From Polyangiaceae bacterium (GTDB lineage: Bacteria > Myxococcota_A > Polyangia > Polyangiales > Polyangiaceae): 53,422 nucleotides of DNA. This document shows, piece by piece, positions 46,215-52,378 of the stretch; position 1 is the first letter of the stretch, and every line of letters starts with the position of its first letter. A program made the position numbers and the translations under genes. The notes below the pieces were generated by a model. That model was not told the DNA's origin. It worked only from the letters and a program-made list of their open reading frames with translations, and searched no databases. The DNA is taken from contig WQZB01000027.1 in NCBI GenBank assembly GCA_009780955.1, forward strand, positions 1 to 53,422, in the 5' to 3' direction.

Positions 46215-49200
46215 TCAGTGGAAATCTCGGCTTGTGGCCGCCATCTCTGGCAGCTGCGCATCCAGTGACTTCATGCGATCGGCAATAACGTAAATGACAT
46301 TTTCTGGCACCCCTGGCACATTGTCCTGGGCAAGACGTTTCTTGCTCTTGTCGCTGCGCTCGATTTTCCCGTGCACCATGAGAAGGCGGGAGGATTTTGC
46401 TATATTACGATATTTGTCGAAAATGCGCGACCAGAGAAGGAGATTCAAAAATCCGAATTCGTCTTCCATGGTCACGAAAACAACCCCACTTGCCGTGGCC
46501 GGTCGCTGCCGGCAGATGACGAGCCCCGCCACGGTGACGCGCGAACCCGATCGCAGCAAAAGGCAATCGCGTGACGACTTGATTCTGCTCGAAAGCCGAG
46601 CGCGAAGAAGCTTCATGGGATGATCGTGATTTGAGATGCCCGTACGCTCGTAATCGAGAACAAGCTGCTCGGCGCGTGACATCGGCGGAAAGAAGGTGCG
46701 CGGCTCGCTCGTCTCGATGCCGCTCCACATGCCCATGGGCCGCGGCAATGCGGCTTTCCAAATGGCCTCACGCCGCCCACCCGACAGAATATCGAGCGCC
46801 CCTGACTCGGCCAATGCAATAAGTGCTTTTTTGTCGAGGCATACGCGCGCGCTGAGATCTTCGATGCTCAAAAAGAGATGCTCTTGGCGAGCGTTTTCAA
46901 TAGACCGAGAAACCTCCTCGCTGAGACCAAGAACGAGGCGTAGCCCAAGACGAATGGAATCGGATGACGGGCAGGTGCAGTCCCAGCCGCTTTCGTTCAC
47001 GTCGAGCGGCAAGAGCCGAACACCGTGGCGTTGTGCGTCTTGAAGCAACGTGGACGGCGAATAGAAACCCATGGGTTGGCTGTTGACGAGCGCCGCCGCG
47101 AAGGCCGCAGGATGGTGCACCTTGAGCCACGCGCTTGCATAAACCAAAAGCGCAAAGCTTGCTGCATGGCTTTCGGGAAAACCATATTCGCCGAAGCCCT
47201 GAATTTGCTGATACAGACGCTTGCCAAAGGCTTCGGAGATGCCGCGCTCGCGAAAGCCTGAAAGCAAACGCTCGCGATGCATTTCGAGCTTGCCGGTCTT
47301 GCGCCATGCAGCCATGTCGCGACGCAATCGGTCGGCTTCGCCGCCGCTGTAGCCCGCACCCGCAATCGCAATTTGCATGACTTGCTCTTGGAAAAGCGGA
47401 ACACCAAGCGTGCGCTCGAGAATTGGCGCGAGAAGCGGATGGGGCGGGTCAGCCCTTTCTTCGCCCGAGCGGCGCCGCAAGTACGGATGCACCATGCCAC
47501 CCTGAATGGGACCCGGGCGCACAATGGCGACTTGTACGACGAGATCATAAAATTTACGCGGCAAAAGACGCGGGAGCATGGCCATTTGCGCGCGGCTTTC
47601 GATCTGAAAAACGCCGACGCTGTCAGCCTTGCAAAGTGCATCATACACGCAAGGATCTTCCGCTGGAATCGCCGCAAGCCTTTCGATGGCCGATCCGGTA
47701 ACAACGCCCGCCGGTACTTCGGCTAGCCCCTGGACGAGATCGAGGCACTTGCGAACCGCCGTGAGCATTCCGAGACCGAGCACATCGATTTTGAAAAAAC
47801 CAAGCGTGTCGATGTCGTCTTTGTCCCAAGGAATGATTGTTCGATTTTCCATGGTCGCAGGCTCGATGGGCGCGACGGCCGACAAGGGCGAGGCCGAAAG
47901 CACGAAGCCTCCCACGTGAATCGACAAATGCCGTGGGAAACCGGCAATGGCCCGCGCCATCGTGAGCGTTTGGCGCACGCGTGGATCGTGCAAGCTGAGG
48001 CCAATCGTTTTTAGGCGCGATTCGCTCAGGGCCGAAATGCCATCCCACCACGTAACGACACCCGAGAGCCTACCCACCTCATCGAGCGACAAGCCAAAGA
48101 CTTTGCCCACCTCGCGCAGCGCGCTCTTCGATTGGTACGAGATGACTTCGCTTACCATCGCAGCGCGATCGCGCCCGTAAACTTCGTAGATTTCCTGGAT
48201 GATTTCTTCGCGGCGCTCATGCTCGAAGTCCACGTCGATGTCTGGCGGCTCGCGGCGCTCATTCGACAGAAAACGCTCGAAGAGCAAATTCGAACGCGCA
48301 GGATCCACCGCGGTGATGCCAAGGCAATAACAGACAGCGCTGTTTGCGGCACTTCCCCTGCCTTGGCAAAGAATGTCACGATGGCGTGCCATGTCGACAA
48401 TGGCGCGCACCGAAAGGAAGTACGGCGCGACTTCAAGCTTCGTAATGAGCAGAAGTTCTTTTTCGATCTGTGCCGCAACCGACGCGGGCACGCCTTGGGG
48501 GCCATATCGCTCTCGTGCGCCGTCGTAAGTCAGGCGGCGAAGGGCTTCATCCGCCGTTTCGGAGATGCCACCACCACGAAAGTCACGATGCACGAGATCG
48601 GTCAGCTCGTACGGAAATCGGTACGAAAGCTCTTTGATCGAAAATTGGCAACGGTCGGCAATGAATCGCGAGCGCTCAACCCATGCATGGTGCACAGAAA
48701 AGAGCCGCTCGATTTCCTCTTCGCTTTTGAGGTACGCCTCGGCATTGGGCAACAGATGGCGCCCGGCTTCATCAAGCGTTTTGCCTTCGCGAATGCAATG
48801 AAGAACATCGAACATGGACTTGTCTCGTTGGCGAGCAAACAGAACATGGCCTGTGGCGCACACAGCAACGCCCCCATTGCGCTGCGCCTCGAGCGTGCGA
48901 ATCACGCGCGCACGATCTTCACCGTCTTTGTGCAAGAAAATGGCAATGGAAAGACGATGGCCAAAGGCGCGCTTGAGAACATCGATGGGAAGCGTGGCGT
49001 CGGCAAGCGCCCAAAGCCCCTCCGCCTTTTCGCACACCCGAGAAAGTGCAATGCCCGCAAAAGTGTTGCGCGGAAGTTCGTCCTCGTCGAGATGAGCGCG
49101 AGTGCCAGTCTGCTGCGATCTGGGGTGACGCGCATGGCTTTCGGTAAGAATCTCACATAAATTCGTGTATCCTACATGGTTTTCGACGAGCACCGTGAGT

Positions 49201-49499
49201 GTGCTTGCCTTGCCGGACATGCCCTCGTAATCATGGTAATCGTCGTGATCGCCAAGGCCATCGCGTTCAAGCGTGAGCTCGCAACCGACAAGGATACGAA
49301 CGCCGCATTTTTGCCCTTGTTCGTAGGCACGCACAATGCCGTAAAGGCCATCGCGATCGGCAATGGCCATTTCGCTATAACCGAGCGAAGCGGCGCGCGC
49401 GACCATGGTTTCTGGAGATGATGCGCCAGAAAGAAAGCTGAAATTCGTGCGTGCTGTGAGCTCGACGTATCTGGTTCTACGTGACGTTCTGCGTGACAT
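46215..49499 (-). CDS. dnaE2: Error-prone DNA polymerase DnaE2
   Basis: A 1094-residue C-family polymerase used in damage tolerance with ImuA/ImuB. The N-terminal PHP domain starts YVELTARTNFSFLSGASSPE with LGYSEMAIADRDGLYG. The catalytic palm has GRGSAANSAVCYCLGIT and the two Asp of PPDIDVDFEHERREE near residue 418. The C-terminal HhH and OB-fold regions are present (RVTVAGLVICRQRPATASG). ATG 49499 overlaps the imuB stop by one base (TGATG). It is the last gene of imuA-imuB-dnaE2. Confidence 0.96.
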   Translation of the reverse strand: MSRRTSRRTRYVELTARTNFSFLSGASSPETMVARAASLGYSEMAIADRDGLYGIVRAYEQGQKCGVRILVGCELTLERDGLGDHDDYHDYEGMSGKASTLTVLVENHVGYTNLCEILTESHARHPRSQQTGTRAHLDEDELPRNTFAGIALSRVCEKAEGLWALADATLPIDVLKRAFGHRLSIAIFLHKDGEDRARVIRTLEAQRNGGVAVCATGHVLFARQRDKSMFDVLHCIREGKTLDEAGRHLLPNAEAYLKSEEEIERLFSVHHAWVERSRFIADRCQFSIKELSYRFPYELTDLVHRDFRGGGISETADEALRRLTYDGARERYGPQGVPASVAAQIEKELLLITKLEVAPYFLSVRAIVDMARHRDILCQGRGSAANSAVCYCLGITAVDPARSNLLFERFLSNERREPPDIDVDFEHERREEIIQEIYEVYGRDRAAMVSEVISYQSKSALREVGKVFGLSLDEVGRLSGVVTWWDGISALSESRLKTIGLSLHDPRVRQTLTMARAIAGFPRHLSIHVGGFVLSASPLSAVAPIEPATMENRTIIPWDKDDIDTLGFFKIDVLGLGMLTAVRKCLDLVQGLAEVPAGVVTGSAIERLAAIPAEDPCVYDALCKADSVGVFQIESRAQMAMLPRLLPRKFYDLVVQVAIVRPGPIQGGMVHPYLRRRSGEERADPPHPLLAPILERTLGVPLFQEQVMQIAIAGAGYSGGEADRLRRDMAAWRKTGKLEMHRERLLSGFRERGISEAFGKRLYQQIQGFGEYGFPESHAASFALLVYASAWLKVHHPAAFAAALVNSQPMGFYSPSTLLQDAQRHGVRLLPLDVNESGWDCTCPSSDSIRLGLRLVLGLSEEVSRSIENARQEHLFLSIEDLSARVCLDKKALIALAESGALDILSGGRREAIWKAALPRPMGMWSGIETSEPRTFFPPMSRAEQLVLDYERTGISNHDHPMKLLRARLSSRIKSSRDCLLLRSGSRVTVAGLVICRQRPATASGVVFVTMEDEFGFLNLLLWSRIFDKYRNIAKSSRLLMVHGKIERSDKSKKRLAQDNVPGVPENVIYVIADRMKSLDAQLPEMAATSRDFH

Positions 49500-50848
49500 C
49501 AGTCGAACCAACCGCGAATACGTGACAGACCGCTTGCGCGATCGATTTCAACCCACGCAGGCGCCTGTTCTACCCACGCGTACACGTAATCGACGCTCGT
49601 GGCGCGCGGGCGTGGCGCGCGCCACCATTCGACTGACTCGAGGCGTGTGAGCAAGCGAACGATGCGCATGCCACTGCGCGGCATGGCAATGGGCCGGTCG
49701 AGCATGCGAGTGGGCTCGGGAACGCTCGAGAGCATGCGCTTGCGACCGTGGGGCTCGCCCTGGCCAACAGGGACAAAGCGCGATCGATCCTTGGGTTGCC
49801 AGGCGTCGCCAAGGGCAAGCTTTCCCACGGCGAGCAGGCCCAGATCAGCCGCGAGCTCGGCGACCAAACGCGGCAACACGCGCGCAGCTTTGGGGAGCGG
49901 ATCGAAGAGAGAGAGCGCACTTTGCGGCTTGTGTACGAGTAGTGGTGCGCGAAGTTTCGCCGACAGAACGGGCGCGCGAAGTCTGCTTTCGGCCGAGAGC
50001 TGTTCGAGTTTTGGTCGCAGCGCGGAGAGCAGATCAGAGGCGCGCGACAGCGGCGAAGGCAAATCGAGCACGATGATCTCTTCGTGTTTCGAAGCATCTT
50101 CGAGGAGCGCGCGATCGAGCGAGAGTACGAGCTCCAAACGCGATGTAGCCACGGCGCGACTTTCGAGACGTGATGCGAGGCGATCCGTCAGTGTTTTGGT
50201 GACGAACACGAGGGCTTCGGTGTCGGTCACGCCATACTCGAAGGGCACCTCTTCTTCTGGAATGGACGGCGGAACGTACGGCGTGAGCGGCGCGCGATCG
50301 TCGCCTTCGGCAAGCGCGAGAACGACCGCCGCGCGCGCACCAAGCCGTGAGGCGAGCGATGCGCGAGGCAGCGACGTGAGATCGCCCACGCTCCGCACAC
50401 CAAGCTTGTGGAGCCAGCGCACATCGCTTTCGGGCAAAGGCAAAGCGGAGATATTGATGAGAGCCATGGCCTCCGCATTCTTTCCAGGCGGAACAATGCC
50501 AATCTTTGTGAGCGACTGCGCGCACGCCGCAGTGTCTTGCCTGGCTAGTTCGTGAGCCAAAATGGCCGCAACACGCGGCCCATCCGCACAAACAACAGCA
50601 CACGCATGCCCTTGTTCGACCATGGCGTTCGCAAGATGCGTAGCAAGTGCCTGCTCGCCCTGCGCTTGGTTGGGCCCGTAGAGGTGCGCACACCCCGTGA
50701 TATCGACCCAAACGACATTACCGTGCGATGCTCGTTCGCCTTGCTCGAACGCTACGGTGGCACCAAAGCAAAGCGCGATCTCCGCGAGCCGCGCGAGTTC
50801 CCCTTGAACGTCCCGCAATGCCGGCAAGTGGATCGCACAGATTCTCAT
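49499..50848 (-). CDS. imuB: ImuB, Y-family polymerase-like mutasome protein
   Basis: 449 residues. The Y-family fold is recognisable from MRICAIHLPALRDVQ, WVDITGCAHLYGPNQAQGEQ and the helix-hairpin-helix LHKLGVRSVGDLTSLPRASL. The acidic residues needed for polymerisation are mostly missing, as in known ImuB, which acts as a scaffold recruiting DnaE2 to the sliding clamp. The C-terminal WWRAPRPRATSVDYVYAWVE resembles the ImuA-C/DnaE2 interaction region. ATG 50848 overlaps the imuA stop (ATGA). There is no obvious clamp motif. Confidence 0.9.
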   Translation of the reverse strand: MRICAIHLPALRDVQGELARLAEIALCFGATVAFEQGERASHGNVVWVDITGCAHLYGPNQAQGEQALATHLANAMVEQGHACAVVCADGPRVAAILAHELARQDTAACAQSLTKIGIVPPGKNAEAMALINISALPLPESDVRWLHKLGVRSVGDLTSLPRASLASRLGARAAVVLALAEGDDRAPLTPYVPPSIPEEEVPFEYGVTDTEALVFVTKTLTDRLASRLESRAVATSRLELVLSLDRALLEDASKHEEIIVLDLPSPLSRASDLLSALRPKLEQLSAESRLRAPVLSAKLRAPLLVHKPQSALSLFDPLPKAARVLPRLVAELAADLGLLAVGKLALGDAWQPKDRSRFVPVGQGEPHGRKRMLSSVPEPTRMLDRPIAMPRSGMRIVRLLTRLESVEWWRAPRPRATSVDYVYAWVEQAPAWVEIDRASGLSRIRGWFD

Positions 50849-51447
50849 TTGCGTGGAAGAGACACTTTGAGGGAGACGGGCCAGGGTAAGGGGCGCGGGG
50901 TGGATGCATTCGTCAAGAGAAGGAACCTTGTGCCGTTCTCTTCCGAAGCGAGTGCGAGCTTGCGCACGATGACCGAACCATCGACACGCGGACGACGTCG
51001 ACTGCCAACCGTGAGGTTGCCAGAAAGGCCTGAGTGCGCATCAACGACGACGAGATCGAACGCGCCCGAGATTGCGATCTTCACGACGGTGCGCGCGAGC
51101 GACGCCGGATCGGGCCGGATGACGAGAAGCCGATCGAGATCGACCCGAGCTTGAGCAACCGAAGGCGCGTAAAGCGATGGCGCATTGGTTGGATTCACCC
51201 ATGCGCACCACGCCCGCGCGTTGTTTTCGTGCACATCGCGCGCCGCCCGGAGGGCAATGGTGGTTGCGCCGCCGCGCATAGCACCCGCCACGCCCTGGAT
51301 GCCACTCATGGGCGCGGCGAGCTCGACGACGCCGCGAGGCCCTGGCAGCGACGCGACCCCCCGCATGACGCCGAGCCGAGCGAAGTCGTGTGCGAGATCA
51401 GAAAAATCACGCAATTTTGAGGCATGAGCAGCATTCATACTGAACAT
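50845..51447 (-). CDS. imuA: ImuA-like RecA-fold protein
   Basis: About 200 residues. It is identified mainly by context: it is directly upstream of imuB and dnaE2 with ATGA coupling. The RecA-like core has VVELAAPMSGIQGVAGAM in the position of a Walker A loop, but without a GKT/S, so ATP binding is doubtful. Walker B-like AFDLVVVDAHS follows. The start is uncertain: ATG 51447 or 51438 both lie in the LexA-type box, and ATG 51366 is another choice. There is no Shine-Dalgarno, so the mRNA may be leaderless. Confidence 0.75.
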   Translation of the reverse strand: MFSMNAAHASKLRDFSDLAHDFARLGVMRGVASLPGPRGVVELAAPMSGIQGVAGAMRGGATTIALRAARDVHENNARAWCAWVNPTNAPSLYAPSVAQARVDLDRLLVIRPDPASLARTVVKIAISGAFDLVVVDAHSGLSGNLTVGSRRRPRVDGSVIVRKLALASEENGTRFLLLTNASTPRPLPWPVSLKVSLPRK

Positions 51448-51458
51448 AATATCAGTAT
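51437..51458. promoter_or_regulatory. LexA-type SOS box
   Basis: ATACTGA-N8-TCAGTAT is a perfect 7-bp palindrome that contains CTG (51440-51442), exactly ten bases, and CAG (51453-51455), the E. coli-type LexA consensus. It overlaps the start of imuA and lies 38 bases upstream of divergent larE. LexA control of imuA-imuB-dnaE2 is established in other bacteria. Confidence 0.8.
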
Positions 51459-51496
51459 TTTCTGCCGACGCAAGACCGCGTGCTACACAGCGAGCC

Positions 51497-52378
51497 ATGT
51501 ACGTTCGCAACGTTCGCATCGAGATGCCCGATGATCCAGCGCTCGCGCGCCTCGCCACCATTTTGCGCAGCATGGGTTCGGTGCTCGTTTGCTATTCGGG
51601 CGGCATTGATAGCGCTTTCGTACTTGCGGTCGCCCACCGCGTGCTCGGCGACAAGTGCGTTGCCATGACCGCGGTAAGCCCAAGCCTCGCGTCGTTCGAG
51701 CGCGAACAAGCCATTGCCATCGCCCGTCAGATCGGCGTACGCCACGAGCTCGTCGAGTCACGCGAAATCGACGACGACAATTATGCAAAGAACGACATCG
51801 ATCGCTGCTTTCATTGCAAAAGCGAGCTTTATCGCGAAGCCTTGAAAAGAAAGATGGAGTGGGGGCTCGCCGAAGTCGTAAGCGGCACGAACATCGACGA
51901 TCTCGGCGATTATCGCCCAGGCCTCGATGCCGCAAAAAAGGCCGGTGCGCGCAGTCCTCTCGTGGAAGCCGGGCTCGGCAAGTCCGAGGTGCGTCGACTC
52001 GCACAGCTTCTTGGCATGCCCATCTGGGATAAACCCGCTGCGGCATGCTTATCGAGCCGTTTACCCTATGGAACTAGGGTGACACGCGAGCGACTCAATC
52101 AGATTGATGCGCTCGAAAAAGCCATTCACGATCTTGGAATTCGCCAGGCGCGCGTGCGCTGGCACACACTTGAAGCCACCAGCCATACCCTCGAAAGTGC
52201 CATGGCACGCATCGAAGTTGCACAGACCGAAATGACGAAAGCGTTCGAGATGCGTGAGGCAATCGTGGCGACCGCAAAGCGTCTCGGCTTCTCGTACGTC
52301 ACACTCGACCTCGCGGGCTACCGCACTGGCAGCCACAACGAGGTGCTTAGAGACCGCCGCGCGCTCCCCGTGATTTAG
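51497..52378 (+). CDS. larE: LarE-like ATP-dependent sulfur transferase
   Basis: A 293-residue PP-loop protein. The ATP motif is SGGIDS (34-39). The sacrificial Cys of LarE is matched by Cys184 in AACLSSRLPYGTRVT. An additional pair, Cys104 and Cys107 (RCFHCKSELY), makes three cysteines as in the 4Fe-4S-type LarE described for Thermotoga. LarE converts the larB product during synthesis of the nickel-pincer cofactor. No larB or larC is in the window, so another sulfur-transfer role is possible. The first ATG is at 51497. Confidence 0.85.
   Translation: MYVRNVRIEMPDDPALARLATILRSMGSVLVCYSGGIDSAFVLAVAHRVLGDKCVAMTAVSPSLASFEREQAIAIARQIGVRHELVESREIDDDNYAKNDIDRCFHCKSELYREALKRKMEWGLAEVVSGTNIDDLGDYRPGLDAAKKAGARSPLVEAGLGKSEVRRLAQLLGMPIWDKPAAACLSSRLPYGTRVTRERLNQIDALEKAIHDLGIRQARVRWHTLEATSHTLESAMARIEVAQTEMTKAFEMREAIVATAKRLGFSYVTLDLAGYRTGSHNEVLRDRRALPVI

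Follow-up and report, generated by a model that had tools for sequence, protein, structure and literature searches.

The locus between imuA and larE raised the question of whether a short palindrome located there serves as a LexA operator, which type of LexA site it represents and which of the flanking genes it would control. It was analysed within a window of 53,422 nucleotides from a member of the Polyangiaceae, and the coordinates of its features are collected in Table 1. The palindrome is a 22-base inverted repeat (ATACTGAACATAATATCAGTAT) with CTG-N10-CAG inside. As stated by an earlier, sequence-only reading of this DNA, it overlaps the start of imuA (ATG at 51438-51436, minus strand) and is separated by 38 bases from the ATG of larE (51497). 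The same reading had called the box perfect, which held for its 7-base arms only: the inner 8 bases fail, and 16 of the 22 positions are self-complementary. The genes imuA, imuB and dnaE2 all point leftward and abut one another in an operon-like arrangement. Among the gene names given previously, LarE and DnaE2 were confirmed by profile matches (TIGR00268 and NF004225, respectively), whereas ImuA and ImuB were assigned only through weak matches and position. An Rfam scan of positions 51000-52000 at gathering scores gave no match.

Table 1. Features of the imuA-larE locus, with positions in the window and the basis of each assignment.
Feature	Position	Strand	Basis and remarks
dnaE2, error-prone polymerase	46215..49511	-	NF004225, 1244 bits; coordinates with provisional start codon
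imuB, Y-family polymerase-like	49499..50848	-	Weak Pol IV-like match and operon place
imuA, RecA-like mutasome accessory	50845..51438	-	Weak RecA-like match and operon place; ATG overlaps operator end; probably leaderless
Putative LexA operator	51437..51458	-	imuA strand ATACTGATATTATGTTCAGTAT; core CTG-N10-CAG at 51455-51440; imuA-locus conservation and matrix score
Probable imuA -10, TATTAT, inside operator	51446..51451	-	Inferred from box-position composition
Probable imuA -35, TTGCGT	51468..51473	-	16 bases ahead of the -10
GCTACACAG, host form of the GCTAGATA-like (GCTA) element	51482..51490	+	Inferred larE promoter element
larE, divergent neighbour	51497..52378	+	TIGR00268, 302 bits against a cut-off of 150

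Taken as a palindrome alone, the box is at the chance level of the window, in which arm pairs with this geometry and CTG-N10-CAG sites each occur 7 times (the imuA box counted in both), as would be the case for a fortuitous palindrome without regulatory role. Its exact form, TACTG-N10-CAGTA, has a single occurrence in the 4.2 Mb genome. For comparison among relatives, ImuA was sought in 58 genomes and the best 30 loci were taken, 29 of which were alignable (L062 was left out). CTG-N10-CAG was found near the imuA start in 27 of the 29 aligned loci, the host's own included, ending in GTTCAG in 26 cases and in GATCAG in one. In a further locus (L060), GTTCAG was intact but one base of CTG differed, and the box was absent from one of the 29 (L064). 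In total, 28 of the 29 aligned loci, counting that of the host, had a box at imuA, and all 28 scored at least 16 bits with a family matrix, although this figure is partly circular because most of those sites trained the matrix. The matrix was derived from imuA promoters in 26 further genomes of the family, leaving out the host's own site, L060, L062 and L064, and the host imuA box scored 33.2 bits with this matrix trained without the host genome. The best score in 600 shuffled 360-base stretches was 14.0 bits (the shuffles preserve base composition only), and roughly 0.0001 genome matches would be expected at the 33.2-bit level if G+C is 55%, and fewer at higher G+C (window G+C, 59%). The box was kept although the ImuA proteins of the relatives are only 36-72% identical. 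The imuA consensus is approximately ACTGRTANTNTGTTCAGTATG, in which CTG and GTTCAG are strict and the fourth base is free; part of the strictness of CTG and GTTCAG reflects selection, because sites were chosen as CTG-N10-CAG ending in GTTCAG or GATCAG, with L060 as the sole near miss. In one relative (L056), two box-like sites of 22.6 and 31.4 bits were observed upstream of imuA, 21 bases apart and on opposite strands. As judged from the family matrix, it is conservation far beyond chance, not the palindrome alone, that makes the box significant. Its maintenance at the imuA start in such diverged relatives, together with the presence of the same box at recA, speaks against a chance palindrome despite the chance-level counts and makes that explanation extremely improbable.

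The composition of the conserved box suggests that it sits on the probable imuA -10 element: T predominates at its positions 5, 8 and 10 (24, 19 and 24 of 26, respectively) and A at position 6 (15/26). A TTG was found 15-18 bases upstream of the predicted -10 in 17 of 27 loci, taking the form TTGCRC in 11 of those 17. A scan of positions 51300-51600 for strict sigma-70 consensus sequences reported no promoter. With the C of CTG counted as 0 and the core end as 16, an in-frame imuA start occupies position 17 or 18 in 14 of 27 loci (ATG in 13, GTG in 1); a further 12 have it between 19 and 31, while one locus (L036) has no in-frame start after the box, just an in-frame ATG within it. These positions fit an imuA mRNA that would be leaderless or nearly so.

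The same box recurs at recA. This gene was present in 35 of 35 genomes, mostly in two copies each, and the best 30 loci were scored; from the weaker second copies, that of the host was considered separately. The matrix was the imuA-trained one, and the result is hence non-circular: of the 30 recA loci scored, 20 had a box of at least 15 bits, among them 12 of 12 within the genus, and the 10 loci below 15 bits all lie outside the genus. The host recA box, AACTGAACAAAAAATCAGTA, scored 27.3 bits and is located 78 bases upstream of the recA ATG. The second host recA (L065:978-2159, genome C8) has no LexA box (1.8 bits); M. xanthus has two recA genes as well, and recA1 is reported to be without a box in the accessible part of the respective study (PMC9705874). 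A sequence-only model was additionally built from 34 hand-chosen boxes, 20 taken from the 28 found at imuA and 14 from the 20 found at recA. Up to an E value of 10, it gave exactly two genome matches, imuA (E 0.02) and recA (E 0.04), both of which had trained the model, with 150 of 581 candidates scored.

The host encodes one LexA, predicted to be self-cleaving. It is the single S24/LexA protein in the genome (LexA_DNA_bind, 92.6 bits; Peptidase_S24, 97.8 bits; TIGR00498), and its AAG and GDSM motifs align with those of solved LexA. At the host lexA promoter, a full box was not found (best score 1.8 bits), and a GTTCAGTA half stands before the start. The lexA promoters of the genus contain TTGAC, then GTTCAGTA, ahead of the start codon, with the CTG missing at the right spacing, and autoregulation of lexA via this weaker half-box is possible. 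In the host, the promoter (L005:2229-2255) reads GTTCAGTACGCTGAAC directly before the GTG start; CTGAAC follows GTTCAGTA in most loci of the genus.

Genome-wide, the pattern CTG-N7-GTTCAG was not enriched (13 matches vs 24 in a reversed control). A larger regulon based on this pattern was rejected after scoring of 12 of the 13 sites (all except one at L262), as the 10 sites besides imuA and recA fell below 14 bits. Also rejected was a third exact CTGA-N6-GTTCAG site (C56, between two ORFs that by eye resemble a lipoprotein and a sigma-54 regulator), which scored 11.0 bits and is probably due to chance. A separate site, CTGCTTGGATGTTCAGG (L257:1501-1516; genome C15:15342-15357), scored 13.6 bits and lies 36 bases ahead of the ATG of a DEAD/DEAH-box helicase gene, with lspA divergent. 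It resembles the M. xanthus pafBC box and may represent a third LexA target.

With regard to its type, the box had been described as E. coli-like and contrasted with the Myxococcus motif, and neither description could be maintained. The E. coli SOS box is TACTGTATATATATACAGTA. The host site shares its outer arms, TACTG and CAGTA, but has the form CTGA-N8-TCAG, without CTGT or ACAG, and the 11 CTGT-N8-ACAG sites of the genome do not include the imuA box. Six-base strictness is moreover limited to the GTTCAG half in the relatives. When the LexA proteins were aligned, the segment that we take to be the recognition helix read STNGVNDH in the host and SPNAAEEH in E. coli. An E. coli-type site was ruled out by the CTGA/TCAG half-site, the free fourth base in the relatives and this helix difference; the resemblance arises because this particular copy happens to have symmetric outer arms. 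By its sequence, the site appears to be of a myxobacterial LexA type, with GTTCAG as the strict half and CTG as the looser half. The SOS motif published for M. xanthus, as given in the accessible part of the report, is CTRHAMRYBYGTTCAGS (PMC9705874). By hand count, the imuA-strand site CTGATATTATGTTCAGT fits 13 of its 17 positions, and the GTTCAG half, common to both, is matched exactly.

This likeness bears on the identity of the regulator. In the same partial source, gel shifts with M. xanthus LexA are described as clear for lexA and recA2 and weak for pafBC, with a recN site left unbound (PMC9705874). The GTTCAG half and the spacing of the host box match the motif of the sites shifted and, like the recurrence of the box at recA, argue against binding by another damage regulator, for instance a PafBC-like or XRE-type protein. 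Such a protein would be in keeping with the mere half box at the host lexA promoter and with M. xanthus, for which the available text reports damage genes that do not depend on LexA, and also DdiA, a second regulator, which acts on dnaE2 (PMC12288472); for the present locus, we regard it as very unlikely. Since the box is conserved at imuA and the same box occurs at recA, a pairing typical of LexA control, it is, with high probability, the operator through which the single host LexA represses imuA-imuB-dnaE2. The comparative evidence thereby gives strong support to the operator proposed for this operon in the sequence-only reading. LexA bound to the box would occlude both the -10 element and the start codon of imuA, excluding RNA polymerase. 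Upon DNA damage, RecA would be activated and LexA would cleave itself, and the operon would be switched on together with recA, whose promoter has the same box. The larE gene, with its own putative start element, would probably remain outside the switch.

The alternative for larE, also raised from the sequence, is a single operator for both directions, at which LexA would repress larE as well as imuA and render larE damage-inducible in the host. In favour of this alternative, a divergent larE is present in the fetched stretch of 14 of the 29 aligned imuA loci. Conversely, larE gave 45 matches, of which 30 loci were examined, and an imuA match lay within about 420 bases upstream in 12 of these 30. 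The box followed imuA, being found within 300 bases in 12/12 of the imuA-adjacent larE loci as against 0/18 of the others at a threshold of 8 bits. The latter (14 from the same family and 4 from other families of the order) contained no box, none scoring above 7.8 bits, and in some of them (e.g. L091, L070 and L072) the same contig carries imuA at a distance of 0.9 to 6 kb. The box was likewise kept in 14 of the 15 imuA loci without larE in the fetched stretch, some of which (G002, G003 and G031) have larE 2 to 6 kb from imuA on the same contig, beyond that stretch. A LarC (PF01969) gene elsewhere in the genome (C1) has no box (5.7 bits).

A GCTAGATA-like element, a possible promoter element, was observed just upstream of several larE starts among loci L066-L095, both imuA-linked and in some cases unlinked. 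Of the 12 imuA-adjacent larE loci, 11 have this GCTA element at distances from the box that range between 26 and 142 bases, the twelfth (L071) having no such element near the larE start, and the bases beyond the box on the larE side are not conserved as a -10; both observations speak against a shared operator. In the host, GCTACACAG begins 26 bases past the box core, the smallest distance among the 11 loci, so that the larE -35 region would abut the box and bound LexA could hinder larE. Control of larE through a shared operator is therefore unlikely as a conserved function, given the boxless larE loci without adjacent imuA and the variable spacing, and incidental repression of larE is possible in this host, where the likely larE promoter directly adjoins the box. 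Most probably, LarE is a bystander, linked to the box by position and not selected for SOS control.

The range of the box was surveyed by searching for ImuB in 14 genomes via named loci and scoring the fetched stretches with the matrix. A box of at least 17 bits was detected in the ImuB stretch of 11 of the 14 genomes, namely three Sorangium cellulosum, two Polyangium, Minicystis rosea, three Labilithrix, Polyangiaceae ACE_MYX1 and Myxococcales SG8_38 (in which ImuB was matched only weakly and ImuA not at all). No box was found in the other three, comprising two Sandaracinaceae (4.0 and 14.0 bits) and Myxococcales bin5 (11.7 bits). This survey overlaps the set of 58 genomes, at least 3 of the 11 being repeated, as the three Labilithrix correspond to G009, G012 and G007. 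The host belongs to the same genus as two genomes recorded as Labilithrix sp. and to the same family as the third. For this family of soil bacteria, to which Sorangium, Polyangium, Minicystis and Labilithrix belong, the box supplies a LexA motif that can be tested. In the open-licence literature, judged by titles and the opening of abstracts, no description of a LexA box in Polyangiaceae or of LarE under LexA control was found.

In Caulobacter and other bacteria, imuA-imuB-dnaE2 operons are SOS-regulated through a LexA motif different from that of the host. The three-gene operon is common to both, with a LexA-type operator predicted here, whereas in the host the operator, the probable -10 element and the start codon fit within about 20 bases. 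The kind of system, a LexA operator at an SOS mutagenesis operon, is accordingly already well known, and it is the difference from M. xanthus that is useful. With the M. xanthus SOS box, as known from recA2 and lexA, the host box shares the GTTCAG half, a CT(R) opposite it at equal spacing and its occurrence at a recA gene. Unlike the M. xanthus box, the sites of the host family are A/T-rich inside, and most have a T after GTTCAG. Moreover, the polymerase operon, a probable direct target in the host family, is not reported as one in M. xanthus: as far as the accessible text goes, the direct LexA targets reported are recA2, lexA and pafB-pafC-cyaA only, and dnaE2 is among the LexA-affected genes but counted as indirect (PMC9705874). 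A second partially available study describes a lexA mutant in which ImuB falls but DnaE2 does not change, and a rise of ImuB with mitomycin C (PMC12288472). Set against these reports, the imuA box of the family suggests direct LexA control of damage-induced mutagenesis, which therefore seems to be a family feature absent from the model M. xanthus, where it is not so reported. We consider it an even call whether the LexA regulon of the family has shrunk to little beyond recA and the polymerase operon, with a stretch of about 20 bases combining operator, -10 element and leaderless start. If so, the LexA site and the initial ImuA codons would constrain each other, and the outcome would be the reverse of that in M. 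xanthus, in which recA2 and lexA were kept under LexA and the polymerase operon was not.
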